From NCBI GenBank assembly GCA_017302855.1, contig JAFLBY010000005.1, positions 1 to 43,058 of the forward strand: a stretch of DNA of 43,058 bases, in the 5' to 3' direction. The notes under the pieces were generated by a model. That model had not been told where the DNA came from and ran no database searches. It worked only from the letters and a program-made list of their open reading frames with translations. Origin of the DNA: Candidatus Kapaibacterium sp. (GTDB lineage Bacteria > Bacteroidota > Ignavibacteria > Kapaibacteriales > UBA961). This document shows, in pieces, positions 1 to 38,758 of this stretch; position 1 is the first letter of the stretch; every line of letters starts with the position of its first letter. The translations under genes were made by a program, and so were the position numbers.

Positions 1-540
1 GCTAATGGCGGTACAAACAGCAATACAATAGGTGGCGCAGGAACGGTCGCTTTTTCTAATGGCACAAGTTTGAATTATACAGCCGTAGGAACAGGTGGTC
101 AAGTTCTAGTATCGAATGGTACGGGAACACCAACATGGGGATCACCAACAGCAGCAATTATTGGTGCTAATGGTATTACAAAAGCAGGCGACACAATTAA
201 ACTTGGCGGATCTCTTAATCAGAACACTAATATACCTTTCGGAACACGTAGTTTAACTTTATCGAATAGCGGTGATGCCGGAAATGTGATCATAGGTAAA
301 TTCACTTCAGCCGGGATTGTTAAAAATAATGCTTCTGGTGTATTATCCACCGGTCAAGTAAACTTAGCGTCAACATCGGAAGTTACCGGTACTCTCGGAA
401 TTACAAATGGAGGTACAGGACTTACTACTGCCGGTTCGAATGGTTCGATGCTTGTCAGTAATGGAACAAATTGGACGATTTTAGGACCGGGTTCCCCCAA
501 TCAAATATTGACAATCACTGGCGTCGGAGTACCTGCGTGG
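1..540. repeat. Long direct repeat, copy 1 (540 bp, in-frame)
   Basis: Aligns without gaps to 1555-2094 (offset 1554). The proteins are almost identical while many third codon positions differ, except for a 59-bp stretch at 229-287 that is identical to 1783-1841. A shorter related segment lies at about 1318-1590. The copy starts at or before the window edge. Confidence 0.85.
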
Positions 541-6500: not shown

Positions 6501-7875
6501 CAAAGAAGGAACAATGAATCTTCAATTGATTCATACAAATGCGAACATGGGTCGTCTTGAGCTAAAACAAAGTAGTACAACAGGTTATAGAATCGGTACT
6601 TTGTTTGGTACTGCAAATGTTGACTCTTTAACGCTCGGTGTTAATGGCGGAACGGGTATTTCTATAAATGCAACTAATCGTGTAGGTATCGGTACTTTAA
6701 CCCCGAATGAGCGTTTGGAAGTTAGTGGAAATGTTCGTTTCAGTAATGCACTTATGCCTAATGGAACAGCCGGTACAACGGGTCAAGTTCTGTTGTCACA
6801 AGGAGCAGGGGTTGCGCCAATTTGGTCAAGTACATTCTCCGGTGTAGCGATTGATTATTGGAATCGTGGTTCAGGAACATTATCATTAGTCGGACTTGGT
6901 TCCGGTAATACTGCCGCTGCTCAATATGCAATTTCAGCCGGTCGAAATAATACGATAAGTTCATTAGGTGAGTACTCAACAATTATTGGTGGTTTCAGTA
7001 ATAATATTCAAGAGAACCGTGCTTTTATTGGTGCCGGTGAATTAAATACTGTTACTGCCGGATTCGGTGCAATTATTGGTGGTATCAGTAATACCGTTAC
7101 CGGGGTGTACTCATTTGTCGGTAATGGTAACAGCAATGATGCGCAGTCTTCATTCTCCGGTATTGTCTCCGGTCAGGATAATGCAACGAATGCATCTCAC
7201 TCATTTATCGGCTCAGGTCAAAATAATATTGTAAGTGGTGCTTGGTCAGTCATACCTGGCGGCTTTAATAATAATGTACAAAGCGGTGGTACGTATGGCG
7301 TTATCAGCGGTGGTCAAAACAATGCCGTTAATAGTACGAATACCGTCGTAGCCGGTGGTGGAAATAATACGATTGGAACTAATTCTAACTATTCAGCAAT
7401 TGTAGGTGGTAGAGAAAATCAAATCGGTAATGTCAGTGCCGCAGAGTATTCAATGGCATTCGGCTACGGAGCCGTAGTCAATCAAAATAGTGCTGTTGTG
7501 TTCAATCACCCTTCTGCAGCTCAACAAACTCAGGTTGGTATTCGCACGAACTCACCTTCACGAGCACTTGATGTTGCGGGCGATGTACGCTTGGGTGCAA
7601 ATGGTACAACAATTACAAATGTGATTAAAGCAACGGTTAATGCAAATATCGGTTCAGTACCGGCGAATGGTTCCATTACATTCGATTTTACAGTCACAAG
7701 TGCTGCTGTTGGTAGTACTGTTTCGATTTCGCCGGCAGATGATTTAGGTAATGGCTTAATAATTGCCACAGCAAGAGTTTCTGCTACTAATACTGTGCAA
7801 ATTCGTTTACAAAATGTTACAGGCGGTGCAATTGATCCGAATCAAATGGACTATTTCATTACTGTAATTCAATAA
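1..7875 (+). CDS. Giant phage-tail-fibre-like repeat surface protein (5' end outside window)
   Basis: The frame is open from base 1 and the first 69 bases match an internal repeat, so the gene starts upstream and the window holds 2,624 residues. It is made of repeats. A 540-bp block at 1-540 recurs at 1555-2094. A 124-residue block with SLNGLT and FNLPDAS motifs occurs three times. A module opening W-x-L-x-GN and ending RTNN-x-ER occurs eight times. Many modules end in VGIGT..P..LDV-like motifs. Around 6199-6390 is a 'TTKGVLFPRMTQAQR' segment of a type common in Bacteroidota surface and phage fibre proteins. About 6922-7530 holds GG-x-NN repeats like YadA/haemagglutinin heads, and 7618-7872 a compact beta-rich tip. 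No S74 chaperone peptidase and no T9SS tail are visible. It is probably an extracellular fibre or adhesin; the export route is unknown. Exported-protein genes follow closely. Confidence 0.85.
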   Translation, partial: ANGGTNSNTIGGAGTVAFSNGTSLNYTAVGTGGQVLVSNGTGTPTWGSPTAAIIGANGITKAGDTIKLGGSLNQNTNIPFGTRSLTLSNSGDAGNVIIGKFTSAGIVKNNASGVLSTGQVNLASTSEVTGTLGITNGGTGLTTAGSNGSMLVSNGTNWTILGPGSPNQILTITGVGVPAWQNVPTAITSLNGLTNATQTFATGTAGTDFTINSAGSTHTFNLPDASTSARGVVTTGIQTFAGAKTFTSDVTLANQTDVRFGDADNSNYVGFQAPNAVGSNVVWTLPNTDGSSGQVISTNGSGVLSWTSNGLTSLNGLTNSTQTFATGTGGTDFTINSVGSTHTFNLPDASTSARGVVTTGIQTFAGAKTFTGDVLHANQTDARFGDADNSNYVGFQAPNAVGSNVIWTLPNADGTIGQVLSTNGTGTLQWSTVAINVPANNGLSKSGDTVQLGGTLNKSTTVNLNSHNLTLSSPGNAGNVIIGKFTTAGIVKNSAAGVLSTGQVNLASSSEVTGVLPIINGGTNSSTIGGAGTVAFSNGTSLNYTAVGTAGQVLLSNGTGTPTWGSPTAAIIGANGITKSGDTIKLGGSLNQNTNIPFGTRSLTLSNSGDAGNVVIGKFTTAGIVKNSAAGVLSTGQVNLASSSEVTGTLGITNGGTGLTSAGANGTMLVSNGTIWTLLAPGSTNQVLTITGGGVPAWSAASVDWSILGNSGINPASNFLGTTTAADMRIRTNNIERINILSGGNVRLESNAGTAQQLQFENPAGTFSTNIIAGAQGADITYTLPTTQGVANTVLTNNGSGAMSWQSVAALANAWSLIGNSGTNPTNNFLGTTDAQDLRLRTNNIERLNILSGGNVRLESNAGTAQQLQLENPAGTFSTNFVAGAQGANITYTLPTALPGTNGVLTSNNTGTQSWSTVDLSGGNQILTGQGVATRVAFWGSTNTLTSSANLFWDNTNTRLGVGSPTPSQELDVNGDILIRSSNGQLQFTGNSTGITTINAGSQGATNINYTLPTAAPTGTVSALISNGSGQWSWLSADNPNGQDGFWTLRGNAGTSTANNFIGTTDNVDLRIRTNNTERIRVESGGNVGIGNIDAQDILHIHDGSNATYLKITNTNSGSGGNDGFDIGITTSSVGELRLRENQNMAFFTNNNQRMVIENGGDVGIGTTNAAERFHVDGGNSRFVGGSTLAQTYYMDLRNQNNEGLQLRFFEPDASGTNYTAMYADIQTNNYLWKLPSNTVPNANDFLKIASVDNLGGGNYRLNLSWDPTSGGGGGYIPNNAYRSGAGVATRIAWWSDDSTLSSSSNLFWDNANNVLRVGTSSTTYTSTDLGAEIQGHLIITNGIGTPRETRWAERNFNPASAGTSHYIALSTRTDQDLSASVNYYWPSSAPSTNNMVLTTNTSGQWSWNDGNNLFWRVGGNTGAGGDYIGTDDNQPFPFRVNNVEGMRLVPNVAGPRLGIGQTNPSERFELRDGNLLISNSGTAGQIRFQEPNAGGTNYTAFQAGAQSSDITYTLPTALPGTNGILTSNNSGTLSWSTVDLSGGNQVISGQGVATRIAFWTATNTLGSDAELYWDNTNKRVGIGTTTPGQELDVDGDIRISGANDQLEFRGNSTGYSTIRAGNQGTTTINYILPTALPTANQVLTASSVAGSDITLGWGNGLNWTLTGNASTNPSTNFLGTTDAQDFRIRTNNTQRISVLSGGGVSLLAAGGTTQTLQFSDGDNSNFIGLRAPTNVSSNVTWTLPSADGTANQVLITNGSGTLSWSNVTAITSLNGLTGSTQTFATGTTGSDFNIASSGTTHTFNLPDASTTARGVITTGAQTLAGDKTFNGNVRVANQSDIRFGDADNSNFVAFQAPANIISNVTWTLPATDGTANQVLRTDGAGNLSWTNASGGGLIVSDSAWSLNGNSVTAGKFLGTKNAFDLPIRTNNIERLTLFSTGNMRLESNGGTAQQFQFENPAGNFISTFQAGAQTANINYTLPIAAPANNQVLISTAAGSMSWANITAIAGYKKVSDSAWALLGNAGTNPTINYIGTSDNQPLVVRTNAVERMRVFTSGNVGIGSPTDDASALLNLTSTTKGVLFPRMTQAQRLAIGSPTDGLLVYQSDNTPGSPQGFYGRIFGQWVALPGWSLTGNAGTDPTNNYLGTNDAKDLSLRTNSTPRLLLKEGTMNLQLIHTNANMGRLELKQSSTTGYRIGTLFGTANVDSLTLGVNGGTGISINATNRVGIGTLTPNERLEVSGNVRFSNALMPNGTAGTTGQVLLSQGAGVAPIWSSTFSGVAIDYWNRGSGTLSLVGLGSGNTAAAQYAISAGRNNTISSLGEYSTIIGGFSNNIQENRAFIGAGELNTVTAGFGAIIGGISNTVTGVYSFVGNGNSNDAQSSFSGIVSGQDNATNASHSFIGSGQNNIVSGAWSVIPGGFNNNVQSGGTYGVISGGQNNAVNSTNTVVAGGGNNTIGTNSNYSAIVGGRENQIGNVSAAEYSMAFGYGAVVNQNSAVVFNHPSAAQQTQVGIRTNSPSRALDVAGDVRLGANGTTITNVIKATVNANIGSVPANGSITFDFTVTSAAVGSTVSISPADDLGNGLIIATARVSATNTVQIRLQNVTGGAIDPNQMDYFITVIQ
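559..1302. repeat. Tandem pair of 372-bp (124-residue) repeats
   Basis: Two adjacent copies start at 559 and 931, each running from a TSLNGLT motif through FNLPDAS, GDADNSNYVGFQAP and WTLP. The first two copies share nearly identical DNA around 680-750 and 1047-1117. A third, more diverged copy is at about 5311-5682. These units recall repeats of phage tail fibres. Confidence 0.8.
1555..2094. repeat. Long direct repeat, copy 2 (540 bp, in-frame)
   Basis: Second copy of the block at 1-540, same reading frame and no length change. It runs from an ING-G-T segment to the VPAW motif at 2083-2094. Confidence 0.85.
2113..6480. repeat. Eight dispersed W-x-L-x-GN ... RTNN-x-ER modules
   Basis: The opening Trp codons are at 2113, 2443, 3139, 4246, 4990, 5713, 6058 and 6394. 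Each module reads roughly W-S-L-x-GN-x-GT, then N-F/Y-LGT-x-DAQ, then RTNN-x-ER, usually followed by SGGNV or a GIG motif. Similar modules are widespread in Bacteroidota surface proteins with fibre-like architecture. Spacing varies from 330 to over 1,000 bases because other modules are inserted. Confidence 0.75.
5311..5682. repeat. Third, diverged copy of the 124-residue repeat
   Basis: Same motif order as the copies at 559 and 931 (TSLNGLT, FNLPDAS, GDADNSN, WTLP) but with more amino-acid changes. It is separated from them by about 4 kb of other modules, so the array was probably built by several rounds of duplication. Confidence 0.75.
6922..7530. repeat. YadA/haemagglutinin-like GG-x-NN repeat region
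   Basis: About seven repeats of roughly 23-25 residues carry the pattern S-x-I-x-GG-x-x-N-x-I (for example STIIGGFSNNI, GAIIGGISNTV, SVIPGGFNNNV, SAIVGGRENQI). The pattern resembles the left-handed beta-roll heads of trimeric autotransporter adhesins and some phage fibres. The structure assignment is inference from the pattern. Confidence 0.6.
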
Positions 7876-21052: not shown

Positions 21053-22024
21053 ATGTTACCAGAAGATGTGTTTCCTCCCGTGATGATGAAATTATCACAA
21101 TTATCAGATCATATTGCTGATTTTATCATATCCATAGACCATAAAAAAGCTGAAACGCGCGGAACATATCAGCGTGCTTTACGAGAGTTTATGTATTTTT
21201 TTAGTACAGACAGGAAGTTTCAGTTCAGAGTTAAGGATGTAGAGCGATATAAACTTCATTTAATGAAAAAAAATCTTAAGCCGGTTTCAATAAGTACTTA
21301 TTTGACTTCATTACGCAGATTTTGTCAATATTTAACGGAAAAGGGAGTTATAGAAAGAAATCCGGCAAAAAAGGTACAAGGTTCAGCCCGCCCACAGCGA
21401 CATTCGCGACATTTTCTCACACTTGATGAAATTAAAATACTTTTAGATTCAATAGATGTATCCAATCAAACGGGGCTACGCGATAAAGCACTTATTCTTA
21501 CTATGTTAGGATGCGCATGTTCTGAAGTTGAATTAAGCACTGCTTCAATTGAAGATTTTACTAAAGATAAACATAAATGGAAATTACGTGTGCAAGGCAA
21601 AGGTAAGTCAGTAAAAAGTGAAATTGTTGATGTGCCCCCGCAAACTGCCGAAGCCATACATAATTATGTGGAGAGCAGAGGAGAACTTCAACCGCATCAA
21701 CCCCTTTTTGCAAGTAATAGTAATCGCACAAAACATAAAAACATGAGTGTAAGAGGTATCAGAGAAGCAATTTCCTTACGGCTTGAGGCAAGTAATGTTA
21801 AACAGGGGAGGGATTTACGGCTGACTCCATTTTCACTGCGCCATACTGCCGGAATTCTCATGGCAGAATCCGGATTTAGTGTTGAGCAAGTGATGGAACG
21901 GATGCGTATTGAATGGCGACCAACAGCATTATTATATTTTAAACAAGCAGGATTATTACATAGCGAAACAAAACCTGATTCAAAAGAATATGTCGGTGAG
22001 TCCGATACTGTGGAAAATTTATAG
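21053..22024 (+). CDS. Tyrosine-recombinase-like protein lacking key catalytic residues
   Basis: This encodes 323 residues. The N-terminal SAM-like core-binding domain (about 15-105) reads like XerC/XerD (TYQRALREF, SISTYLTSLRRF, NPAKKV). The catalytic domain runs from about 118. The usual GLRxSEL box with the first catalytic Arg reads GCACSEVEL, so that Arg is A155. The beta-hairpin Lys is present (QGKGKS). The HxLRHT box reads FSLRHT (F260, R263). The LGH/W box reads MRI (I286). Tyr295 (TALLYF) is kept. Thus three of six classical positions differ. It is 10 bases after the Sua5 gene and reads as a member of this operon, not a mobile-element integrase. It may be a non-catalytic partner or a diverged recombinase. 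Confidence 0.75.
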   Translation: MLPEDVFPPVMMKLSQLSDHIADFIISIDHKKAETRGTYQRALREFMYFFSTDRKFQFRVKDVERYKLHLMKKNLKPVSISTYLTSLRRFCQYLTEKGVIERNPAKKVQGSARPQRHSRHFLTLDEIKILLDSIDVSNQTGLRDKALILTMLGCACSEVELSTASIEDFTKDKHKWKLRVQGKGKSVKSEIVDVPPQTAEAIHNYVESRGELQPHQPLFASNSNRTKHKNMSVRGIREAISLRLEASNVKQGRDLRLTPFSLRHTAGILMAESGFSVEQVMERMRIEWRPTALLYFKQAGLLHSETKPDSKEYVGESDTVENL

Positions 22025-22027
22025 TAT

Positions 22028-22789
22028 TTATGAACCAAAAATTTTCTTTATTTCTGCCACTCTTCGACGTGCAACAGGCAATTGTGTGCTGTCGTCGAGT
22101 TTGACGCAATAACTGCCGGAAAACCAGGGTATTAATTCACGAATAGCATCTATTTTTACAAGATGAGATCGGTGAACACGTATAAAATCATGCGGTGATA
22201 ATCTTTGTTCTAAAACATCAACCGTATAATCTGTCTTAAATTTCCCTTCATGAATATACACAAATACATTTTTGTCTTCTGCTTCAATTCTGCGAATTTC
22301 ATTCGCTGCAACAACGCGTAAATTGCCATTGGAATGTACGGTAATTCTGGATAAAATACTTGTAGAATGTTCTTGAATTAATGCTTCAATTTTTTCTGAC
22401 TGTTGTGCCGCTCCATAATTTATAATCCGCTGAAGTGTTTTATAGAGACGCTCTTTGCTTACCGGTTTTGTAAGATAATCCAGAGCATGAACATCAAAAG
22501 CACGCAGAGCATATTCATCATAGGCGGTGACAAATATTATCTGCGGTCTAGGTGTTGAGATTAATTCAACAATCTCAAAACCATTAAGCCCGGGCATTTG
22601 AATGTCTATAAAGATAATATCAGGTTTTTCTGCATAAATTAAAGGAATTGCCTGTGTCCCATTTTCGGCTTCTCCAATAATCTCAAGAGAAAAATCTTCA
22701 AATTCAGAGGCACATCGCTGCAATAATGTACGAAATCGAGCACGAGCCAAATGCTCATCATCTATGATTATACATGTTAATTTTTTCAC
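22028..22789 (-). CDS. LytTR-family response regulator
   Basis: This encodes 253 residues. The receiver domain (about 1-120) has the acidic pair D10-D11, phosphoacceptor D62 (IIFIDIQMPGLNG), Thr in FVTAYD and Lys in LTKPVS. A LytTR DNA-binding domain follows (about 147-250; IRRIEAEDKNVFVYIHEGK, and FIRVHRSHLV). It is 10 bases downstream of a LytS-like kinase gene, its likely partner. Its end lies 3 bases from the end of the convergent recombinase-like gene, so the two transcripts may overlap. Target genes are unknown. Confidence 0.9.
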   Translation of the reverse strand: MKKLTCIIIDDEHLARARFRTLLQRCASEFEDFSLEIIGEAENGTQAIPLIYAEKPDIIFIDIQMPGLNGFEIVELISTPRPQIIFVTAYDEYALRAFDVHALDYLTKPVSKERLYKTLQRIINYGAAQQSEKIEALIQEHSTSILSRITVHSNGNLRVVAANEIRRIEAEDKNVFVYIHEGKFKTDYTVDVLEQRLSPHDFIRVHRSHLVKIDAIRELIPWFSGSYCVKLDDSTQLPVARRRVAEIKKIFGS

Positions 22790-24028: not shown

Positions 24029-26422
24029 TTAGAATGTATAGCGAAACATTGGCACAGGGAAGAAGCCTTGCTGATATTCTGTTACGATACTATTGGTTCT
24101 TCGATTATATGATTGTTGGAAAATATTCTCATTATTAGTGATATTTTGAAACTCAATGGCAAATTCCATAGTACTGCTACCAAAGTTCTGACGATAGGCA
24201 ATTTTCAAATCTGTTCTAAAGTATGCGGACTGTCTCTCAGAAAATGCACGAGAATTATCATAAACGGCAGAACCTGCACGTTTTGATTGTTCTAAGTCTA
24301 AGGGTGTCAAGTAGCGTCCGCCGGTTGTAGAAAGCCGTAAGCTTATGGATAGCACATCGTCGCCGATTGCAAACTCTTTACCTGCGAGCATATTGGCAAC
24401 ATATCCCATATTAAAAGCTGTGTTCCTTTCAATGCCATCAAATCCTTTGTATTTCGAGTCAAACAAAGAACCGGTTGCCAATACATAAAAGCCATCATTA
24501 AAAAATCTTTCAACGGTAAGTTCTGCACCTATATTTTTTGCAGTTCCTTCATTTATTAAATTGGGTTGATCATTGGGGGCAAATGAGTTTCCGGCATTAA
24601 TGAGTGAGAATGTCGGGTTTTCCCTGCTGATGGGAATATCAAATAATGATTGATAATACATTTCTGCCTTAAGTCTCCAATTTTCTGCAAAATTCCAATC
24701 ATAACCCAAAACAAAATGATGACTTTTTGTGAATCCCATATTACTGTTTGTTCGCAATATTCCATTCGGGCTTGGGGTTTCATAAAAATAGTCATAAATG
24801 TTTTGTGTCTGGCTATGAAGTCCGTATCCTAATGATAATGTTTGTCCATTGCCAAAAGAATATTGAACACTTGCTCTTGGTTCAATAATAAAGGCATCTC
24901 CCAAGGTATAATGCTGTGTATGTGCTCCGACAATAGTTGTAAAATCATCCGTAAGGCGATGTTTCCATTGTATATATCCTTGACTCAATGTAGAACCGTC
25001 ATTAATATTTACTCTTTGTGTTTCTATGCCGTTCGGATAATCTTTATTTGATAAATTAAAGAGCAATCTGTCCACAGTAAATCCTGCCGATAGAGAATTA
25101 CGATTATCAAATTTGTGGCGAAGTTGTCCTATGGCTGATAATTTTGTCGTTGTAAATTCGGCTTGTCCATCAATATATTCTTTACGTGTTTTGACATCAA
25201 TCGAATCACCACGGAAATTTTCATTTGTGCCCGAAGCACCGAGAGTAAATTTCATAAATGTTTGCGGTGATATATTGGTTTCATAGGATATACCCGCTAT
25301 GCCTGTTTGATAATCAACACGCACATTTTGATTTTCATCACCATAAAGATTTTTTTGTGTTGTGTCAATATCATTGCCAAGAAAAGCAATATCACTGCGT
25401 CCGGCAATAGAAAAAACATTAATAGCTGAGGATTCATTCAGAGGAAAATGAAATTTTAGATTAACATCTTGATAATTAGGAATAGCTCCACCTGTCCCAA
25501 AGTCAATACCCAATTCTTTGAATACTCCTAAAGTAGAATAGCGATAATTCACAATATATGATGCACCGGATTCTTGCGATAAAGGTCCTTCGGCACCAAG
25601 TTCAAATCCATTAAATCCGACTTGACCAATAAATTCATGTTTTTCGGTATTGCCATTACGCATACGTAAATCAAACACACCGGCAAAAGCATTACCATAT
25701 TGAGAATTAAATGCTCCCGAGAAAAAATCCGATTTTCCCAGATTATTATTGTTCAAAATGCTGACAGGACCTCCCGTACTGTTGAGTGAACCGAAGTGAT
25801 TTGGATTGGGTATATTTAATCCTTCTAATTGCCATAACATACCGGCAGGCGAATTACCTCTGACAACGATATCATTGCGAGAATCATTCGCACCAACAAC
25901 GCCCGCAAAATTTTGTACCATGCGCGACGGATCGCCCAGTGCGCCCGCATATTTTTTTGTATCTTCAATATTAAATGCTCGGGCACTTACAGCAGCATAT
26001 TCATTGATGGTGTTTATTTTTTGTGCTCCTCGGTCAAATGTTACCACAACTTCTTCTGTGGCAGTTATTTTTTCAACTAATGCTATGTCCAAAATAGTTT
26101 CTTTGCCTGCCGTGACTAATATTTCCCGTAATGTTTGTTCTTGATAACCGATTGCCTTGACAATAATTGTTTGGCGACCAAGTGGCACATTTTTTAATCT
26201 GAAATTGCCGTTTTTATCCGATACCGACCCAATTTTTTTTGTACTGTCCACAATCATTTGGACAGTAATTCCGCTGAGTGCTGCATTCGATTCAGCATCA
26301 CGAATTGTACCTCGTACCGTTTGTGTTGATTTCGGTTTATTTGTGATGGCATCGCCGGTTTGAGCTTGACCGACAAATGTTGTATAAAGAAAAAGCGTAC
26401 AAAGTACAGCAAATCGTATCAT
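24029..26422 (-). CDS. TonB-dependent outer-membrane receptor
   Basis: This encodes 797 residues. Signal peptide: about 1-20 (ends VGQAQ). A CarboxypepD-like beta-sandwich is at about 32-120 (VRGTIRDAESNAALSGITV, SDKNGNFRLKNVP). A plug domain with KYAGALGDPSRMVQNFAGV, DIVVRGNSPAGMLW and NPNHFGSLNSTGGPVSIL is followed by a ~22-strand barrel ending in an aromatic residue (MFRYTF). This is the SusC/FecA-like import type seen throughout Bacteroidota, but no SusD partner is beside it. The substrate is unknown. It diverges from a predicted poly-gamma-glutamate hydrolase gene 240 bases away, which suggests (inference) a peptide-type substrate. Confidence 0.9.
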   Translation of the reverse strand: MIRFAVLCTLFLYTTFVGQAQTGDAITNKPKSTQTVRGTIRDAESNAALSGITVQMIVDSTKKIGSVSDKNGNFRLKNVPLGRQTIIVKAIGYQEQTLREILVTAGKETILDIALVEKITATEEVVVTFDRGAQKINTINEYAAVSARAFNIEDTKKYAGALGDPSRMVQNFAGVVGANDSRNDIVVRGNSPAGMLWQLEGLNIPNPNHFGSLNSTGGPVSILNNNNLGKSDFFSGAFNSQYGNAFAGVFDLRMRNGNTEKHEFIGQVGFNGFELGAEGPLSQESGASYIVNYRYSTLGVFKELGIDFGTGGAIPNYQDVNLKFHFPLNESSAINVFSIAGRSDIAFLGNDIDTTQKNLYGDENQNVRVDYQTGIAGISYETNISPQTFMKFTLGASGTNENFRGDSIDVKTRKEYIDGQAEFTTTKLSAIGQLRHKFDNRNSLSAGFTVDRLLFNLSNKDYPNGIETQRVNINDGSTLSQGYIQWKHRLTDDFTTIVGAHTQHYTLGDAFIIEPRASVQYSFGNGQTLSLGYGLHSQTQNIYDYFYETPSPNGILRTNSNMGFTKSHHFVLGYDWNFAENWRLKAEMYYQSLFDIPISRENPTFSLINAGNSFAPNDQPNLINEGTAKNIGAELTVERFFNDGFYVLATGSLFDSKYKGFDGIERNTAFNMGYVANMLAGKEFAIGDDVLSISLRLSTTGGRYLTPLDLEQSKRAGSAVYDNSRAFSERQSAYFRTDLKIAYRQNFGSSTMEFAIEFQNITNNENIFQQSYNRRTNSIVTEYQQGFFPVPMFRYTF

Positions 26423-26603
26423 TGTATTACCATAAAATTGTGAATAAATATGTTTTCGACGGCAAAAATCGGAATCAGTGCTTGCGTAAAAAAGTAAATA
26501 CCGTTGGGATGTTGATTTTTGCGGATGAACGGTATGATTTGCCCGACAAACGGTGTATTGTTCTTATGCTTTTGGCGTTTAGTAAACGGTTAGTAAGCAT
26601 CCG

Positions 26604-26611
26604 TAAGTTTG
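26604..26611 (+). promoter_or_regulatory. Candidate -7 box upstream of PGA-hydrolase gene
   Basis: TAAGTTTG fits TAnnTTTG and lies 52 bases before the ATG at 26663; TTAGGAG at 26649-26655 provides a good ribosome site. No clear -33 TTG is seen at the usual spacing. The 240-base divergent region otherwise holds no recognisable gene. Confidence 0.3.
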
Positions 26612-26662
26612 CAACTGAAAATCAAACATTACTTTCTTTCATAATTATTAGGAGTTTTCAAT

Positions 26663-27475
26663 ATGAAAAACCAACAGTCATTCTCACATCTCATTTCTTC
26701 ATCGTTCATTATGGGTATGTTTGCTTTCGGCATCATCGGTTTCGCTGTCGGATGTCGTGAAGTTCAAACAAATCAACCTGTTGACACAACAGAACAGTAC
26801 GAAGAAACCATGGAAATCAATTGTGCAGATCATGCTAATCATGGCAAATCTACTATTCTTGCGGCGGATACTTATGCAAATTTTGCTGGCTTAGCTGCTA
26901 CTGAAGCCGTGTCGGCATACAGCAAACAGTGGAGGACTACAAGTTCAACCACGATAATCTGCACGCCCCATGGTGGAGGAATTGAGGCAGGAACGACGGA
27001 AATATGCGATTCTATCGCCGGCAATGATTATGATTTCTATAGTTTCACCGGACTTAAAACGCCGAACAGCGGTAATGCGACTTTACATATTACATCCGTC
27101 AATTTCGATGAACCAAAAGGCAATGAATTAATCCAAGCAGCATCCAAAGCACTTGTGCTTCATGGTAAAGCCGATAATAACAATGAGATCGTGTATGTTG
27201 GTGGACGTGACGCAGCACTCCGCACGAAAGTTAAATCCGAATTAGAAGCAGAAGGTTTTACCGCCATCATTGATACAACATCAAGTATTTCGGGGCAAGC
27301 AAAAGCGAATTTTACGAACCGTACAACATCAGAAAAAGGTTGTCAATTAGAAATTACAACAAAATTGCGTCAGAAACTTATGTCGAATTTGTTTAATGGT
27401 CCGACAAATCGTATGAATAGTCGTACAGTACATTTTACAAAATTTGTTCGTGCTTTACGTAAAGCAGTGCAATAA
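26663..27475 (+). CDS. Poly-gamma-glutamate hydrolase-family lipoprotein
   Basis: This encodes 270 residues. A hydrophobic leader ends AVGC (C31), a plausible though not ideal lipobox, so a lipid-anchored protein is likely. The mature domain from about residue 58 matches the phage/Bacillus poly-gamma-glutamate depolymerase family (PghP-like, a zinc enzyme related in fold to carboxypeptidases): DTYANFAGLAATE, TPHGGGIEAGTTEI (H103 and E108), YDFYSFTGL, LHITSVNFDEP (H142), LVLHGK (H167), VYVGGRD and CQLEITTKLR. It would cut the gamma-linked glutamate polymer at the surface or in the periplasm. TTAGGAG precedes the start, which is taken at 26663. It ends at a shared terminator with the convergent peptidase gene. 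Poly-gamma-glutamate is a capsule of some bacilli, so digesting a foreign polymer is plausible. Confidence 0.8.
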   Translation: MKNQQSFSHLISSSFIMGMFAFGIIGFAVGCREVQTNQPVDTTEQYEETMEINCADHANHGKSTILAADTYANFAGLAATEAVSAYSKQWRTTSSTTIICTPHGGGIEAGTTEICDSIAGNDYDFYSFTGLKTPNSGNATLHITSVNFDEPKGNELIQAASKALVLHGKADNNNEIVYVGGRDAALRTKVKSELEAEGFTAIIDTTSSISGQAKANFTNRTTSEKGCQLEITTKLRQKLMSNLFNGPTNRMNSRTVHFTKFVRALRKAVQ

Positions 27476-27485
27476 TGGAGAAAAT

Positions 27486-27520
27486 AAAAGCCGGCAAAAC
27501 AATCGTCTTGTCGGCTTTTT
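27486..27520. terminator. Bidirectional rho-independent terminator
   Basis: AAAAGCCGGCAAAAC and GTCTTGTCGGCTTTTT pair with two G-T mismatches around an AATC loop, with A-run and T-run flanks. It lies between the convergent PGA-hydrolase and M1-like peptidase genes and can serve both. Confidence 0.8.
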
Positions 27521-27543
27521 ATCATAACTTAAGTTTGTGGAGA

Positions 27544-29787
27544 TTATTCCCAATCTTCAATTTTTACTGTTGCTAATACAGACTCTAAATCATTAAAGAT
27601 AATTTCTTTTGGTGCGGATGCCAAAGGTGGTAAATCAAACTCCGATTTTGCGCCGGTTATAAAAACCCGAATACGTGCGCTACTCCCATTCTCGAAGACA
27701 ATTTTTATTGGAATACTCATCTTAAAATCAGGGGGGACTTCTTTTTGTTCTACACGTACATGTACCTTAAATTTATCATCAGGAGTTTTTTCAGTTTTGA
27801 AAGCGAAATGATAGACAGGAATATCCGAACAATGTACCCATTGTTCAAAAAACCATGAAACATCTTGTTTAACATGTTTTTCAACAATTTTTTGAAAATC
27901 GGCAATAGATGCAGATTTACCTTGATACGTCGTAAAAAAATCTTTCATTATTGTTTTAAAAGCATCTTCGTTCATGGTATTTAGATTGAGCAATATATTG
28001 CGTAACATGTGTAATGTCCATGCACCTTTTTCATAAATTACTGTATGATAGTCTTCTCGAGTAAGGGATGTGCTTGCCACACGATGACCCAAAGAAATAG
28101 GGCATAAATCCACACCATCGCTTTTTCTTTGTTTTTTTGCGTTTATTATTTTCTCACGAGTGTTTTTTAAAATATCAAAGAATTTTTTATTGTCGCCCAG
28201 CATCATTTGTAAATACATAAGTGAAGAGTATTCCGTAAATCCTTCACTGAGCCATCGGTCTCGATATGTTTTATAATCTAAACCGATGCCCCACCACTGA
28301 TGTCCCGTTTCATGGGCATTAAATGATTGCCATGCTCCTGAGTTATCTGAATCTTCAAATGTAAGCCAAGAAAGATGCAGCATACCCGGGAATGCTTCGC
28401 CGTGAGTGTAAGGTATTTCGGTTGCATTCAATGATTGTAAAGGAAGTGGACCGAATAGTCTTGTGTAAAACTCATACGCTTGAGCAATGTCCGTGAGAAC
28501 ATTTTTTTTGTTATTGCTATTGATATAATGTAAAGTAATTGGGGGAACATCTTTACGGTCGGACACTGCTGTGCTGAATGGTCCTATATTAAATGAAGCA
28601 TTACGTATGGGGTATTCCACTGTCCAACGACTAATTATCTCGCCATCTTTCTTTTCTTCTGATACTTTATTGCCTATGCTGATCAGTTTATAATTGTCCG
28701 GTGCAGCGAATGTAATGTCAAAAAGTGATTTTTGCTTATATCCATAAGTAGGATACCATTGGATGGAGGTTTCTATAATTGTATAATCATAGATTCTTTT
28801 AATAATTTTACCACCATATTTGACGGTAAGTGTTTTGTTCTGACCTTTTTTAGATGCTCCAATATGTATCCAAATTTTATTTGATTCATCAGGTTGAAAA
28901 AATTCGAGAGAATTCCCTTTCTCATCTTTGATACTTTCTATCGTCAAATCTTCATATAAATTAAAGCTTGCCCATTTCATTTCATCTGAATTTACTGTAA
29001 TGCGTAATTGTGAGGTCACAGCCATTTTTAAGCCATTATCTATTTTTACATCAAGGGTGTTATGTGTAACTGTTAATTCTTCTTCAGGATTGTGTGCAGG
29101 GTTTATGGAAGGACAAAGATTAACAAAATTATATTCAAAATTATCGGCAGTGGTTTTAGAGATATAGAATGAAATCGGTTCGGGCTCCGTAGGGCAAAAC
29201 TCATATAATACTGTTTTTAGTCTTTCACCATAAGCCATACAATGGAATGAACTGTTTCTTCGAGCATCAAGCAAAGAATGAGACCAAATGATTTCTCGAT
29301 GTTCGAAGTACGTACTGAATAAATCTTTAAATTTATGAGGGAATTTTATTTTTTCTGTTGAGGTTAGTTTTTGGGGAGGAAATTTCTTCACAATGTTTTC
29401 ATACAAAGAGTCATTAAAAAAGAGTACCATATCGGTAAATTCATTGTAAAAACTTTTTTGTCCCTCATTGTATTGCGCCAATCTGTCGGTTTCAACTTTA
29501 GTCGTGGGCATATAACGCAAACTTGCTACACCTGTAAAATAAGCAATATGGGTACGATCATTCCATGGTTCTGCAAACGAAATTGTGCCGGAACTGAGAA
29601 CTATAGTAAGTCCTTCCCGTGTTATGGTATATCCTTCAACTGTACTTATTGCTTTGTTATTAATGGTTAAATCATCAAAGTACTTTTCAATGGACATATA
29701 GGTAGGGGAATCGGCAGCTATAATCGAAGCTGCTGAGCATAAGAGTATGAGTACGCCGACAGACAAAGAGCGAAAGATGTAACTCAT
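27544..29787 (-). CDS. M1-family (gluzincin) metallopeptidase, exported
   Basis: This encodes 747 residues. A signal peptide covers about 1-24 (VGVLILLCSAASIIAA). The N-terminal ~230 residues are not recognised. An M1-like beta saddle follows (about 235-410), then the catalytic domain. The zinc motif is HETGH (H492, E493, H496) with the third ligand E515 in RWLSEGFTEY. YEKGAW further on suits the catalytic Tyr of the family. The usual G-x-MEN exopeptidase motif is replaced by EAFPGMLHLSW (about 464-474), so it may not be a classical aminopeptidase. It presumably acts on peptides outside the inner membrane. It shares a terminator with the PGA-hydrolase gene and diverges from an outer-membrane protein operon. 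Confidence 0.85.
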   Translation of the reverse strand: MSYIFRSLSVGVLILLCSAASIIAADSPTYMSIEKYFDDLTINNKAISTVEGYTITREGLTIVLSSGTISFAEPWNDRTHIAYFTGVASLRYMPTTKVETDRLAQYNEGQKSFYNEFTDMVLFFNDSLYENIVKKFPPQKLTSTEKIKFPHKFKDLFSTYFEHREIIWSHSLLDARRNSSFHCMAYGERLKTVLYEFCPTEPEPISFYISKTTADNFEYNFVNLCPSINPAHNPEEELTVTHNTLDVKIDNGLKMAVTSQLRITVNSDEMKWASFNLYEDLTIESIKDEKGNSLEFFQPDESNKIWIHIGASKKGQNKTLTVKYGGKIIKRIYDYTIIETSIQWYPTYGYKQKSLFDITFAAPDNYKLISIGNKVSEEKKDGEIISRWTVEYPIRNASFNIGPFSTAVSDRKDVPPITLHYINSNNKKNVLTDIAQAYEFYTRLFGPLPLQSLNATEIPYTHGEAFPGMLHLSWLTFEDSDNSGAWQSFNAHETGHQWWGIGLDYKTYRDRWLSEGFTEYSSLMYLQMMLGDNKKFFDILKNTREKIINAKKQRKSDGVDLCPISLGHRVASTSLTREDYHTVIYEKGAWTLHMLRNILLNLNTMNEDAFKTIMKDFFTTYQGKSASIADFQKIVEKHVKQDVSWFFEQWVHCSDIPVYHFAFKTEKTPDDKFKVHVRVEQKEVPPDFKMSIPIKIVFENGSSARIRVFITGAKSEFDLPPLASAPKEIIFNDLESVLATVKIEDWE

Positions 29788-32374: not shown

Positions 32375-32408
32375 AAAAAAAAATCCCGCTTTGTGCGGGA
32401 TTTTTTTT
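32375..32408. terminator. Bidirectional rho-independent terminator
   Basis: ATCCCGC and GCGGGAT form a stem around TTTGT, flanked by a run of A and a run of eight T. It separates the PD40-OmpA gene from the convergent exporter operon and overlaps the stop codon of the HlyD gene. Confidence 0.9.
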
Positions 32409-33795
32409 ATTCTTCGCTGTCATCATCTTTTTTTGATTTTTTTCCGTCTTTGGGTTTATCAACCGTTGGCGGAAACCCATTAAATTGTCGCCATAATTCA
32501 AAGCCAAGGGTTACGGTATTTAACTGCATCCATCCTAATGAACGAGTACCCGGTCTTAAAAATTTCGATTCGGGCCATTGTTCATCATTGGGATCGGGGC
32601 GGACAACGACACGAAATTTACCGCTTGATTTTTCATCATCAACAGCATCAATAACAGAAATAATACCACCGAAAGTACCCACGGACACTGATGGCCAGCC
32701 GGAAATCTGAAATCCCGGAAATCCATCAAATTGGAGCCTTACCTTACGCCCCACCGATAATAATGGAGCATCATTGCCGGAAATCATCAATTCCACAGCT
32801 AAACTATTTGCATCAGGAACGATGATAGCAATTTCTTGTCCTTGTTTAAGTGTTTCTCCGCTGCCCAAAGTTAATAGCCGAACAACTTTGCCATTAACAG
32901 GTGAACGCACAATAGCCGCGTTGCGTCGTGCGAGAGCTGTATTTAACTCGGAAGTGCCTTTTGCAATCGAATTTTCTAATGAAGCAATAGTTTCCATAGC
33001 TTTAGTTTCATCTGACATCACTTTGAATATTTTTGATGAACCTTCGCTTTCTTTATTGATTACATTAGAGCGTTCTTCTTGTTCATTGCGTCGTGCCCCT
33101 TCGGCATCGGTTTGAGCTTTCGTCAACGATACTTCGCTACGTTGTAAATCCATGCGATCGCGTTCAAAATCGCGCTGTGAACGCAATCCTTTTTCGAATA
33201 ATTGTTTTCTGTCCTCAAATCGAGTTTTGGCAATATCATAATCTAATTCGGCTTGCTTTACTGTTGCTTCCGCGGCTATGCGTTTTTGTATAGATTGTTG
33301 GAGTTTTTGTTTTGAAGCCATAACGCCGGCTTCTCTTGCATTTCTTTCTGCTTCAACTTGCTGTCGAAAAACTTGCACCTGCATTTCAATTTGATTTTTT
33401 CTTTCCTTGAGTGCTTCTAATTGTTTTGATTGATTTTCAATAAGATTAAAATCTAAGAATTTACTGTCAATATCTTCTAATATGGCAATAGTGTCGCCTG
33501 CTTGCACAAATTGACCTTCGGTGACATACCATTTTTCTAAGCGACCTTTAATTTGCGCTTGCACTGTTTGTGGACGTTGATTTGGGATAAGAGCTGTCAC
33601 TTGACCATCTCCATTTACTGTTTGAACCCAAGGGATTCCAACAAGAACAATAATTAGAGATACGAGTAAAAACAATAAAAGAAATGCAAACACTCGCATG
33701 CTGCGTGAAGTACGCACAGCCGTAAGTGAATAACTTAGTCCGTGATTCGGAATTGATTGTGGAATATGCGGTTTAAAGAGCGACATTAGTTTCAT
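32407..33795 (-). CDS. HlyD-type periplasmic adaptor (membrane fusion) protein
   Basis: This encodes 462 residues. One membrane helix lies near the N-terminus (about 33-53). A first lipoyl-like half (about 75-110; QIKGRLEKWYVTEGQFVQAG, then DTIAILED), a long alpha-helical hairpin (about 115-280, coiled coil with many Gln/Glu/Arg) and the second lipoyl half (IVRSPVNGKVVRLLTLGSGETL) follow, then a beta-barrel domain and an acidic Lys/Asp tail. It links an inner-membrane exporter to an outer-membrane channel in type I secretion-like systems. It overlaps the ABC gene by 4 bases, its certain partner. No TolC-like gene is next to it. Confidence 0.9.
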   Translation of the reverse strand: MKLMSLFKPHIPQSIPNHGLSYSLTAVRTSRSMRVFAFLLLFLLVSLIIVLVGIPWVQTVNGDGQVTALIPNQRPQTVQAQIKGRLEKWYVTEGQFVQAGDTIAILEDIDSKFLDFNLIENQSKQLEALKERKNQIEMQVQVFRQQVEAERNAREAGVMASKQKLQQSIQKRIAAEATVKQAELDYDIAKTRFEDRKQLFEKGLRSQRDFERDRMDLQRSEVSLTKAQTDAEGARRNEQEERSNVINKESEGSSKIFKVMSDETKAMETIASLENSIAKGTSELNTALARRNAAIVRSPVNGKVVRLLTLGSGETLKQGQEIAIIVPDANSLAVELMISGNDAPLLSVGRKVRLQFDGFPGFQISGWPSVSVGTFGGIISVIDAVDDEKSSGKFRVVVRPDPNDEQWPESKFLRPGTRSLGWMQLNTVTLGFELWRQFNGFPPTVDKPKDGKKSKKDDDSEE

Positions 33796-36290
33796 TGTTG
33801 CTGTCCTTTTTGGAGATTATAATCCAAGAATGAAGATAAATCGGGAAATAAATGTGAACATTCACTTGTTTTATCATTCGCAAGCTCGGTTGGTATTCCT
33901 TGTTCCACGATAGCACCATCACGTAAGACATACATCATATCTGTTACGGCGACTACTTCCGGGTCATGAGTAATTGCAATAATTGTCCAAGGATTATTTT
34001 TATCAAATATTTTTTGCATTAATTCTATTTTTAGATTTTCTTCAATTCCGGTAAATGGTTCGTCTAAAACAAGCAGACGAGGGCTATGAACAATAGCACG
34101 GGCAATCATCAAACGGCGTATTTCGCCCGTGGAAAGATTTTTCCCAAAACTGATGAGATGAGTTTGTAAGCCCTGTGGCAAACGTAAAAATGTTTCGTCC
34201 AAATGCGTTAAACGAATAGCGTTCATCACATCTTGCGGACTGACCCAAGGTCTGCCCATCACTATATTTTCATAGACTGTACCTTCGATTATTTCATCAT
34301 TCGGCAATACAAGTCCAATATTGCGCCGTAAGGATGATAAATCCAACACTCGAGTATCATAATCATTTAAAAGAACGGTTCCTGTTTTTGCTTCAATAAC
34401 ACCAATAAGCAAATGTGCTAACGTTGATTTTCCTGCGCCTGATTTTCCAACCAAAGAAGCTCTTGCCCCTGAGGGTACGAACAATGTTAAATTATGTAAT
34501 ACGGGCAATGAATCATAAGAGTAAGACACAGATTTTGTTTCTACTGCGATGCCGCTATTTCCTTGAGGAAACAATGTTCCACCAACTCGTTCAAGGGGAA
34601 TATCCGTTACATGTCCAACTTTATCAAGAGATGTTAAAGCATCATAGACCACTTCCAATTGGCGAAACAGCTTCTCAAGTGCTGCGATAAGTGAAACAAT
34701 AACTATTTCTGTTGCAACAAGTTGACCAAGTGTGATTTGTCTTTCAATCACTAAAATACCGCCTATAGCCAACACCGATGTGTTAATTACTGAACGCAAA
34801 ACGGCAAAGCCGGATAATTGGCGAACTAAGATATGAAAATGTGAACGACGGTGTTTTAAGTATTGATGCAATAAAGAATCAATTCTGCGGAAAATAAATT
34901 CCGTTGTTCCGGTTAATTTAAAGCTGAGCATTGAGCGTCCAATGTCCTCTAAAAAACCTGCTACATCATACTTCTTTTTCGATTCATTGATGCTGGTCTT
35001 TAAAGCACCGCGCCCAAGTACATAAATCATAATACCTGAAAAAACAAGTAAGATAATGCCTATTGTAAGTAATATGGGACTGACAAATGCCAATAATGCT
35101 AAACCGGCAACACCGATAATTAATGCCCCAAGACCATCAATAAGTATTTTTGACACGGACTTTTGTAAGGTCAGTATGTCAAAAAAACGATTAAGTAACT
35201 CAGGTACATTTTCGTGCTCCATTGCTTCATAATCAGCTTTTGGTAATTTATAAGAAATTTCAAATGCCGTATTGACAAAAAGGCGTTGTTGAATTACTTC
35301 GACTACATACATTTGCACAATACTGACAAAGCCGGAAAAAAGAAGTCCAAAAAATATTAACCCTGATAATACCAAAAGAGGAAGTGTATAAATACCCGCA
35401 GATATTGTGGAAACAATAGCATTGACCGATAATGGCGTAACAAGTGAAACTAAGCCAATAATAATACTATAGGCAATAACAATCCATATATCTTTTTGTT
35501 CGAAACGTATATAGCGAACAGCTCTTTCAACCGGTGTAAGATGATGATGGTCTGCTTCATGATCTTTGTGATGGAGCGGCTCTTTATGATACACTTCAGC
35601 AATAAAACCAATTCCTCCTTCTGCTACAATAACCGGTAAGCCATGATTGGGCAATATTGTGCGCACATGATGCGCTGCCGAAAGTGTGGAAGCTAATTCG
35701 GGGTGCTCCAATAAATGACAAGCAAGTTCTTTTCTACCTTGCACTTCTAAAGCAACAACTTCTAGATATTCAGCGACGAGCAAAAGAGTTTCGCTACCAT
35801 ACTTTTGCAAACATTTGTCAATCTGCTTTGGCTCTACACCTGCGTGAGCCAATAAGGTACGCGATTTTTCTATTTCATGATCAAGAGCAATCTGATATGC
35901 TTTCTTTTCTGTGTCCTCAAGCACCTTTTCATCAATGTCTATCTCATCTTGATTCGATAAAATCACACAACGCAGAACAGAACCTTTTTTGGACATAATC
36001 GCAATTTGTTGCCAAGTTCCTTGCCAATAAATCGAAGTAACCGCCGGTATGATATAATCGGAGTGTTTTGTGAAGAAATCATGCACTGCCACATATCGCA
36101 AGTGAGCGGCTATACCAACCTGTGAACACAGATGTAACAATACTCCTGATTCTTTCCAATGCAGAACATCCGGCTGTAAATCCTGAGCATTGACTATTGA
36201 CTCTATAATGGTATGCGGCAAGGTTACTGCGGGTTTCTTCAGCAGTATTTCTAATGCCGTTGTATATTCTCTTACGATTATATCATTCAT
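33792..36290 (-). CDS. HlyB-like ABC exporter with unusual N-terminal extension
   Basis: This encodes 832 residues. About 1-130 may be a degenerate C39-peptidase-like domain (no catalytic Cys; suggestion only). About 130-210 is helical. Residues 235-250 form a His-rich linker. The ABC transmembrane domain (about 265-560) has six helices. In the nucleotide-binding domain (about 580-832), Walker A is GKSGAGKST (615-623), the signature is LSTGE (719-723, not LSGGQ), Walker B is LLVLDEP (739-745) and the H-loop His is H775. The usual Q-loop Gln is replaced (LVLPND, P663), and the D-loop reads FTGIEEN. It probably exports a peptide or protein together with the overlapping HlyD-like protein. The substrate is not known. 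Confidence 0.88.
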   Translation of the reverse strand: MNDIIVREYTTALEILLKKPAVTLPHTIIESIVNAQDLQPDVLHWKESGVLLHLCSQVGIAAHLRYVAVHDFFTKHSDYIIPAVTSIYWQGTWQQIAIMSKKGSVLRCVILSNQDEIDIDEKVLEDTEKKAYQIALDHEIEKSRTLLAHAGVEPKQIDKCLQKYGSETLLLVAEYLEVVALEVQGRKELACHLLEHPELASTLSAAHHVRTILPNHGLPVIVAEGGIGFIAEVYHKEPLHHKDHEADHHHLTPVERAVRYIRFEQKDIWIVIAYSIIIGLVSLVTPLSVNAIVSTISAGIYTLPLLVLSGLIFFGLLFSGFVSIVQMYVVEVIQQRLFVNTAFEISYKLPKADYEAMEHENVPELLNRFFDILTLQKSVSKILIDGLGALIIGVAGLALLAFVSPILLTIGIILLVFSGIMIYVLGRGALKTSINESKKKYDVAGFLEDIGRSMLSFKLTGTTEFIFRRIDSLLHQYLKHRRSHFHILVRQLSGFAVLRSVINTSVLAIGGILVIERQITLGQLVATEIVIVSLIAALEKLFRQLEVVYDALTSLDKVGHVTDIPLERVGGTLFPQGNSGIAVETKSVSYSYDSLPVLHNLTLFVPSGARASLVGKSGAGKSTLAHLLIGVIEAKTGTVLLNDYDTRVLDLSSLRRNIGLVLPNDEIIEGTVYENIVMGRPWVSPQDVMNAIRLTHLDETFLRLPQGLQTHLISFGKNLSTGEIRRLMIARAIVHSPRLLVLDEPFTGIEENLKIELMQKIFDKNNPWTIIAITHDPEVVAVTDMMYVLRDGAIVEQGIPTELANDKTSECSHLFPDLSSFLDYNLQKGQQQ

Positions 36291-36549: not shown

Positions 36550-38040
36550 ATGAGAAATGTTTTCCTTTTTATCATTTTCGTATGGAGTGGTATTGCTGTC
36601 GAAGCAACAGTATTGGAAATTGGTGTCGGTAAGCCATTTACGCGCTTGCAACAAGCCGCCTCGCAGGCAAAGCCCGGCGATACTCTCTTGATACGTGAAG
36701 GAGTATATCCGGGTGGGGATTATATTGAAAAGTTACAAGGCACAATGCAAAATTATATTGTCATTCGCGCCGCAAAAGGCGAACAGGTAATTTTTCGCGG
36801 TGGCTCACAAGCGTTTCATCTTACCGATCCGGCATATCTAAAAATTGAAGGTCTGATATTTGAGCAACAAACGAGTAATGGTGTGAATATTGATGATGGC
36901 GGTTCGTATGATACTCCTGCGCATCATATTGTTATCAGCAATTGTGAATGGCGTTCCATGAATGCCACAGGCAATAATGATGAACTAAAAATGTCCGGCG
37001 TGGACTCTTTTACCATCACTCGAAGCCGTTTCCTTAATGGCTCACCGGGTGGTTCGCTCATTGATATGGTCGGTTGCCATTATGGTATATTTTCCGATAA
37101 TTATTTTGAAAATGGCGGTTCTAATTGCATACAAGCAAAAGGGGGAACAGCACATATTCTCATTACACGCAATAGATTTATCAATGGTGGCGAAAGAGCC
37201 GTTAATATCGGTGGCTCGACAGGTTTACAATTTTTTCGTCCTTTAGAAACAAAATATGAAGCAGCATTTATTCGCGTGGTATCGAATATATTTATCGGAT
37301 CAAATGCACCAATTGCATTCGTGGGGGCAGTGCAATGTGAAGTTGCCAATAATACAATACATCGTCCGGTTCGCTGGGCTGTAAGAATATTACAGGAAAC
37401 AGTAGGAAATGGATTTTTACCATGCGGTAATAATTCTTTTCATGATAATATAATTGTCTTTTCTTCTGCGCAACCTGCATTTAATATAGGTGGTAATACC
37501 GCTCCGGAGACATTTAGTTATGGCTGGAATTTATGGTATAATCCCGATAATGTATCGTGGGCGGGTCCTAATATTCCGGCTGATGATAAAGACCCGGCGC
37601 GTATTATTGCAGATCCTTTATTTATTGATACAATGAATTTTATTCCAAGTTCTCTTTCTCCTGCCATTGGTTCCGGCTCTCCTGAGATTGCAGATTATTC
37701 GGATTTTAATGGTCGCCAATTTTCGACTATTTCTGCAATGGGAAGAAATCGTTCTCGTGGGGCTGTAGAGGTTTATTCTACATCGTCATCATCAGATTAT
37801 TTTGAAAAAACATCTATATTTTACCCTAATCCAAGCTCTGGGGAAGTATTTTCTGCTTTATCTCATGGAATAATTATGCCCTATGTGACATTAACTCACA
37901 GCGTAAATGGTAATTCTTTTTTGTTACCTGTTTTATGGAGAGAAAATGGAATTTCATTTCATTGTATGTCAATTCCTGCCGGCACATATTTTGTGCAATC
38001 GGGTCAAAATATACTTGGTAAAATCGTTTTGATACGGTAA
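36550..38040 (+). CDS. Secreted right-handed beta-helix protein with T9SS sorting tail
   Basis: This encodes 496 residues. Signal peptide: about 1-19 (VFLFIIFVWSGIAVEA). The body (about 25-390) is a right-handed parallel beta-helix typical of pectate-lyase-like or polysaccharide-acting proteins: FTRLQQAASQAKPGDTLLI at the start, then coils with ITRSRFLNG, GIFSDNYFENGG, LITRNRFINGG and VSNIFIGSN. The last ~75 residues (IFYPNPSSGEVF ... IPAGTYFVQSGQNILGKIVLIR) match the T9SS type A sorting domain, so it should be secreted and attached at the surface. The substrate (probably a glycan) cannot be decided from sequence. It ends 7 bases from a convergent outer-membrane protein gene. Confidence 0.85.
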   Translation: MRNVFLFIIFVWSGIAVEATVLEIGVGKPFTRLQQAASQAKPGDTLLIREGVYPGGDYIEKLQGTMQNYIVIRAAKGEQVIFRGGSQAFHLTDPAYLKIEGLIFEQQTSNGVNIDDGGSYDTPAHHIVISNCEWRSMNATGNNDELKMSGVDSFTITRSRFLNGSPGGSLIDMVGCHYGIFSDNYFENGGSNCIQAKGGTAHILITRNRFINGGERAVNIGGSTGLQFFRPLETKYEAAFIRVVSNIFIGSNAPIAFVGAVQCEVANNTIHRPVRWAVRILQETVGNGFLPCGNNSFHDNIIVFSSAQPAFNIGGNTAPETFSYGWNLWYNPDNVSWAGPNIPADDKDPARIIADPLFIDTMNFIPSSLSPAIGSGSPEIADYSDFNGRQFSTISAMGRNRSRGAVEVYSTSSSSDYFEKTSIFYPNPSSGEVFSALSHGIIMPYVTLTHSVNGNSFLLPVLWRENGISFHCMSIPAGTYFVQSGQNILGKIVLIR

Positions 38041-38047
38041 TGTTTAA

Positions 38048-38758
38048 TTAATAAAACTTAAATATAACTCCCAAATCAATTGCAGGGACAAACTCTTGTA
38101 TTGTACTCACTTCATAGCTCATTCCCAAACCTGCATTTATACCAAGACCAAAGGATTGACTTATATCCCAAGCCCAATCACCGCCGATGAGCAAAGATGG
38201 ACCGTAGAAAGATGGACCGTAGAGAGCTTCAATAGTAGTATGTATAGAGCTTGTTTCTATAAATGATCGTTGATTGTATCCCAATGTACCGAATTGCGCA
38301 TTGAGATAAACATCCTTGAAAACATAGTATTTAACACCGGCTGCAACAATAAAATCTATTTTCGGAAATAAACCAATTCCGGCATGAAAACCAAATCTAT
38401 CTTCTTTTGCCGTATTAAATTGAAATCTGATTCCGGGTAATCCATAGCTATTACCTACCCCTGCACCTACGAGAAATGATGCTTTATCGTTGTACTCAGG
38501 TTGTTCTTTTACTTCTTCATCTTTTGAAGAAAAAACCTCTCGTTTTCCATTCTCATAAAGAATAACCACAACTTGACTTATAGGAAGTACCCTTGTCGGA
38601 CCTGAGAGAAAATCAAAATCTTTATATCGTATCTCTGTGCTCGAAATTTCAAGAACTTTTGACGGTATCTCTTTCCCATCTCGTTTAATGATAATATCTT
38701 GGGCATGAAGTTCAACGCAGGCAACAATGATTGTAAGCATCACAAGTAGTCGGTACAT
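38048..38758 (-). CDS. Outer-membrane beta-barrel-like protein
   Basis: This encodes 236 residues. A signal peptide ends near HAQD. A short N-terminal segment (IIIKRDGKEIPSKVLEISSTEIRYKDF, then VLPISQVVVILYENGKRE) is a type often found before outer-membrane barrels in Bacteroidota. The rest alternates Gly and aromatic residues over about eight strands (FGFHAGIGLFPKIDFIVAAG, KYYVFKDVYLNAQFGTLGYN, SFGLGINAGLGMSYEV) and ends in Phe-Lys-Phe-Tyr. The function is unknown. Upstream, CAGCAC and GTGCTG (38800-38816) form a small hairpin in its leader. Confidence 0.75.
   Translation of the reverse strand: MYRLLVMLTIIVACVELHAQDIIIKRDGKEIPSKVLEISSTEIRYKDFDFLSGPTRVLPISQVVVILYENGKREVFSSKDEEVKEQPEYNDKASFLVGAGVGNSYGLPGIRFQFNTAKEDRFGFHAGIGLFPKIDFIVAAGVKYYVFKDVYLNAQFGTLGYNQRSFIETSSIHTTIEALYGPSFYGPSLLIGGDWAWDISQSFGLGINAGLGMSYEVSTIQEFVPAIDLGVIFKFY

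Follow-up and report, generated by a model that had tools for sequence, protein, structure and literature searches.

A predicted lipoprotein of the poly-gamma-glutamate hydrolase family and its gene neighbours in a Candidatus Kapaibacterium genome

What is a hydrolase of poly-gamma-glutamate (gamma-PGA) doing in a Candidatus Kapaibacterium, and does it work together with the genes that flank it? The window analysed here, by which we mean the whole stretch of DNA to which all coordinates refer, is one contig, 43,058 bases long, from a genome of 3.58 Mb. An earlier note had proposed a three-gene scavenging locus in it, made up of a TonB-dependent receptor, a gamma-PGA hydrolase lipoprotein and an exported M1-like peptidase, that would serve feeding on, or defence against, a foreign polymer. 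Our analysis does not support that locus and leaves one well-annotated gene whose role is plausible, an ordinary case with one modest twist.

The hydrolase and its active site

The gene at 26663..27475 (plus strand, 270 aa), whose ATG is directly preceded by AGGAG, encodes a predicted gamma-PGA hydrolase of the PghP/PghL type. Residues 71-264 matched PF05908 (Gamma_PGA_hydro) at 170.9 bits (cut-off 22; E 2.7e-50), and the protein also matched PHROG 4175, 'poly-gamma-glutamate hydrolase' (E 1.6e-38), and the PDB entries 21dc, 5onj, 3a9l and 5onl (E 6.7e-32 to 2.2e-24); a search of NCBIfam matched no model. The family annotation is far beyond chance, as the earlier note had read it from the letters alone. 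An AF2 model built from 16 sequences has a disordered N-terminus and a domain that is mostly confident from about residue 70. When this domain was compared with the PDB, the top three matches were all gamma-PGA hydrolases (target TM 0.92 for 21dc, 0.92 for 5onj and 0.90 for 3a9l), and the fourth dropped to 0.35.

In the part of PMC6506827 available to us, PghL is described as binding zinc through H41, E46 and H102 and as using E165 and H77 for catalysis; the R171S substitution left PghL unable to cut, and selection of L-glutamate is attributed to R171. By alignment to PghL and the PDB chains, the corresponding stretch of the window hydrolase runs from H103 to R236 (26969..27370, plus strand) and contains the zinc ligands H103, E108 and H167, the catalytic residues E230 and H142, and the substrate residues N138, T144, S145, N216, T233 and R236. 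Eleven of the 12 mapped PghL residues are identical, the exception being PghL S74, which is A139 here (the numbering was placed by hand through the 5onj alignment, PghL having no row in the alignment described next). R236 is the counterpart of Arg171, the stereochemistry arginine, which makes a polymer containing L-glutamate the expected substrate. We aligned 84 sequences, namely the window protein, three phage proteins and those of 80 named loci, the best 80 of 287 confirmed hydrolase loci gathered with two short peptide patterns. In this set H103, E108, H167, E230 and R236 are invariant (84/84) and H142 is kept in 83 rows; T233 is variable, with T in 17 of the 84. The residues of PghP/PghL that match H103/E108/H167, E230, H142 and R236 have been mutation-tested or seen in a substrate complex, according to the same partly available literature.

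The gene is under purifying selection, with a dN/dS of 0.157 for the pair formed by our genome (G000) and its congener G001, the only pair from which the ratio was taken, dS of the hydrolase being saturated between G000 and G002. This value is the highest among the five genes compared with G001 (range 0.044-0.157), which we count against our main explanation. Family, fold, active-site residues and this selection were all computed directly, and the enzyme's activity is inferred. PghP of phage phiNIT1 (3a9l), the hydrolase of Bacillus phage PM1 (21dc) and PghL/YndL of Bacillus subtilis (5onj) have the domain, the fold, the zinc ligands, the catalytic Glu and His and the stereochemistry Arg in common with the window protein. 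However, these three are phage or prophage-derived single domains, whereas the window hydrolase is longer by some 65 residues at the N-terminus, a lipobox among them, and is encoded in an Ignavibacteria-type genome.

Predicted lipid anchor, distribution and possible origin

The N-terminal extension begins with a predicted lipoprotein signal peptide (26663..26755, plus strand) that ends in the lipobox AVGC with Cys31 (26744-26755), in agreement with the lipoprotein call made earlier, and the same signal in the congeneric locus L076 was scored as lipoprotein by our rule-based procedure. We applied this procedure to the 80 named loci (the best 80 of 287) and sorted them into groups manually, using record titles and the labels of the tree. 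All four loci of the same order scored as lipoproteins. Among the 55 loci of other, mainly Gram-negative, phyla, 54 had no export signal and one had a sec/TM signal; the 12 Bacillota loci comprised eight sec/TM, one doubtful lipoprotein and three without signal, the eight from Actinomycetota two sec/TM, one doubtful lipoprotein and five without, and the single Fusobacteriota locus was sec/TM. The 'lipo' scores of L112 and L152 were unconvincing by eye. The consistent signal within the order suggests a role outside the cytoplasm. A lipobox marks a predicted membrane lipoprotein and is compatible with either side of the outer membrane, so that the surface position given in the earlier note is a possibility; the membrane in question is probably the outer one. 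The modest new point is a predicted lipoprotein form of gamma-PGA hydrolase in all four loci of this order, against no export signal in 54 of the 55 others, among the best 80 of 287 loci.

The hydrolase was found in all three genomes of the genus (our own included), in none of the 11 others of the family and in two of the 47 others of the order. Of 123 genomes of the order, five had PF05908, and of 395 genomes taken from across the phylum, three exceeded its cut-off, two of them being G000 and G001. Relatives occur in 214 phage records, of which 138 are from Bacillus and 74 from Staphylococcus phages. Such rare and patchy occurrence fits a horizontal gain. In the tree, the window protein grouped with those of L076, L077 and L079 (99/97), and this group was placed beside a Bacillota/Actinomycetota/phage branch. 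The support for that join was 83/35 and the bootstrap was still unsettled, so that the tree does not resolve the donor of the hydrolase.

A prophage origin of this particular copy was considered and rejected: among the window's ORFs of at least 150 aa, 21 of 24 were scanned against Pfam, and the region was judged to be no prophage. The phage-type matches were a tyrosine recombinase (PF00589) at 21053-22024, at a distance of four genes from that of the hydrolase, and a baseplate family (PF18338) below its cut-off (22.5 against 25.8 bits) in the ORF at 70-7875. The latter ORF, near the contig start, would encode 2601 aa with NGGTGL-type repeats, is fibre- or adhesin-like by eye and contains a 372-base repeat (562-1272). 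Mamberti et al. (2015, PMC4497714) checked 55 species for a prophage link of pghP-like genes and, in the part of that paper available to us, report none.

The flanking genes

The gene arrangement is as described before: the receptor gene (24029..26422, minus strand) and the hydrolase gene diverge across a 240-base gap, and the hydrolase and peptidase genes (the latter at 27544..29787, minus strand) converge across 68 bases. The peptidase (747 aa) matched PF01433 (Peptidase_M1, E 4.6e-17), has a hydrophobic N-terminus and contains the zinc site HExxH-18-E (H492, E493, H496 and E515), which bears out its description as an exported M1-like peptidase. The site is invariant in eight of eight aligned sequences, all of which matched the Pfam M1 family. 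Also invariant in all eight is HGEAFPG, near the expected place of the exopeptidase motif GAMEN; since HGEAFPG stands there instead, aminopeptidase action is putative, and the M1-like subfamily that carries it may form a separate peptidase group. The M1-like gene of G001 lacks one base where the signal peptide ends (L061:8190-8215, around window position 29713), which places signal and mature part in different frames and points to an assembly error or a lost signal.

The receptor was the weakest of the three calls. The 797-aa protein matched CarboxypepD_reg significantly at its N-terminus, its Plug match (E 0.0086) lies below the cut-off, and no barrel family was matched. In a PDB profile search the N-terminal domain alone found matches, and an AF2 model from three sequences was too poor to use (pLDDT 28.5). 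Among six aligned homologues, the window protein included, Plug was matched in five (best 3.5e-6) and a barrel family in one (1.9e-12), so the label of TonB-dependent receptor is fair by homology. Receptor matches are numerous, with 3 to 18 in each of 61 genomes. The arrangement resembles the SusC/SusD uptake loci of Bacteroidota, where a TonB-receptor-like gene stands beside an exported degradative enzyme, but differs from them in the opposite strands, in a linkage that is not kept outside the genus and in the missing SusD. PF07980, the sole family searched for SusD, was absent from all five hydrolase-bearing genomes and rang in the Bacteroides control; that the receptor has 'no SusD partner' therefore carries no information.

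Do the three genes act as one? They are adjacent in three of three genomes of the genus, including G002, where the hydrolase is 66-68% identical and the neighbourhood still the same, and all three products have export signals or are outer-membrane-like. Both observations would suit a locus whose lipoprotein cleaves gamma-PGA, whose M1-like enzyme trims the fragments and whose TonB receptor takes them up, and the first counts against our main explanation. But the adjacency accompanies synteny of the whole region: in G001 the matched genes span 17387 (there a partial match) to 38040 of the window, and in G002 they reach from the receptor to 42405, except 36550-38040 and 38048-38758. It is thus inherited gene order.

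Beyond the genus the neighbourhood is not kept, an outcome that the earlier note had itself named as refuting its proposal. In G021, G022 and G102 the DNA retrieved around the hydrolase gene contained no receptor or M1 homologue; in G021 and G022 the best homologues of both lie on contigs other than the hydrolase's, and the neighbours identified there are a thioredoxin-like protein and a sulfatase. Likewise, receptor and M1 homologues were absent from 78 of the 80 named hydrolase loci (the best 80 of 287), the exceptions being the congeneric L076 and L077. The queries in this homology test were the proteins encoded in the window (E 1e-5), so that unrelated receptors or peptidases would escape the count, and flanks of at least 4 kb were available on both sides in 40 of these best 80 of 287 loci and on at least one side in 71. 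Of 61 genomes, 15 have clear M1 homologues (E 2.1e-99 or better), and ten of these 15 are free of the hydrolase. M1 peptidases, moreover, act on alpha-peptide bonds.

The transcriptional layout points the same way. Between the convergent hydrolase and peptidase genes lies a hairpin (27486..27519), a probable two-way terminator with a T run after it on both strands (z -2.8 on the plus and -4.1 on the minus strand; 2 and 0 of 200 shuffles, respectively, were as good), and the same gap in G002 also contains a hairpin, of different sequence. This suggests separate transcription of the two genes. A promoter scan with a sigma-70 consensus, which may not suit this phylum, returned two promoter-like sites against 4.2 in shuffles, with none in the divergent gap (26423-26662). 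Given the opposite strands, the terminator and the other surroundings elsewhere, the genes for the receptor and the M1-like peptidase are in all likelihood independent of the hydrolase, and a joint scavenging locus is very unlikely. A genus-specific link may nevertheless exist in view of the adjacency in all three congeners, and receptor and hydrolase could be controlled together from the 240 bases between their divergent genes.

The receptor has other neighbours. Directly downstream on the same strand are genes for a LytS-type histidine kinase (PF06580; 22800..23903, minus) and, after it, a LytTR response regulator (22028..22789, minus), an order found in G000 and G001. G055, of another family, keeps receptor, kinase and LytTR regulator (51% and 59% identity) without hydrolase or M1. 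In G037, G044 and G022 the DNA retrieved around the receptor homologue showed no such pair (G002 and G047, whose contigs end inside the receptor, were left out of the comparison), so this link is also partial. Two closely related delta-proteobacterial loci (L087:10638-12337 and L095:2000-3293) have a LytTR regulator and a kinase beside the hydrolase, on the opposite strand. Further along the window, 32407-36290 encodes what may be a pair for export, namely a membrane fusion protein of HlyD type and an ABC transporter whose N-terminal region is long, and 36550-38040 encodes a chondroitinase-B-like right-handed beta-helix protein (PF14592, E 8.1e-8), possibly a polymer-degrading enzyme.

Substrate, products and meaning

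Whose polymer would the enzyme cut? CapC (PF14102), the sole synthesis marker used, was absent from all five hydrolase-bearing genomes and rang in the Bacillus subtilis control. Turnover of an own capsule is therefore unlikely and was rejected as the main reading, and a foreign polymer is the likely substrate. That the enzyme instead acts on a gamma-glutamyl polymer made by the bacterium itself, or on some different gamma-glutamyl compound, appears quite improbable: CapC is missing and the substrate residues for gamma-PGA are kept, with 11 of the 12 mapped PghL residues identical, even if the substrate of the lipoprotein forms is only predicted. The genome does contain one CapA-like gene (PF09587), which we count against our main explanation; the family is unspecific and was also found in 7 of 14 controls, Escherichia coli included. 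Synthesis of gamma-PGA has been proposed in Cloacimonadota in the part of PMC13082233 available to us.

The part of the earlier proposal that concerned a foreign substrate thus seems likely, and the part that concerned feeding is unproven. Gamma-glutamyltransferase (GGT, PF01019) was absent from the three congeners and present in one of the five hydrolase-bearing genomes, so full use of the oligomers as food would lack a known enzyme; this, too, is counted against our explanation. PF07722, found in 5 of 5 hydrolase-bearing genomes and 14 of 14 controls, is uninformative. The lack of GGT in the genus fits an enzyme that serves access or defence but not nutrition, by removing gamma-PGA that belongs to neighbours or to a biofilm matrix, as does the role in polymer clearance that phage relatives are held to have (PMC4497714, as far as available). 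But sequence does not separate clearance from feeding, and other enzymes might use glutamate oligomers; we regard clearance alone as possible, at appreciably less than an even chance.

The explanation that we hold, with somewhat more confidence than doubt, is an exported, lipid-anchored, zinc-dependent gamma-PGA hydrolase of the PghP/PghL type that acts on the polymer of other microbes, the flanking genes being independent. The product would be exported and anchored by lipid, probably at the outer membrane, and would shorten L-glutamate-containing gamma-linked polymers of other microbes in the same community. The benefit would most likely be local, through loosening of the foreign polymer matrix and release of short glutamate oligomers. 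It is also conceivable, if improbable, that the lineage has made a phage-type hydrolase into a permanent outward-facing outer-membrane lipoprotein, a depolymerase of contact range, joined in one genus to the receptor and the LytTR pair.

The feeding idea is already in print. Mamberti et al. (PMC4497714), in the part available to us, describe pghP-like genes in many non-producing bacteria and propose feeding on gamma-PGA; their non-Bacillales cases show, as here, a hydrolase without a synthesis gene and horizontal spread. The idea in the earlier note is therefore an independent rediscovery, for a further lineage. The enzyme family is known, and the lipoprotein form is the only point not met in the available part of that paper, whose main text contains neither 'lipoprotein' nor 'signal peptide' and does not discuss the lipid-anchored form under these words. 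Our literature search returned nothing on polyglutamate in Kapabacteria, nor on a gamma-glutamate hydrolase in Ignavibacteria.

The case illustrates how adjacency alone misleads, here through inherited gene order within one genus. If the enzyme is active, it would show cleanly how a non-producing organism of Gram-negative type digests gamma-PGA with an exported enzyme, and would make the feeding hypothesis of 2015 (PMC4497714) directly testable.
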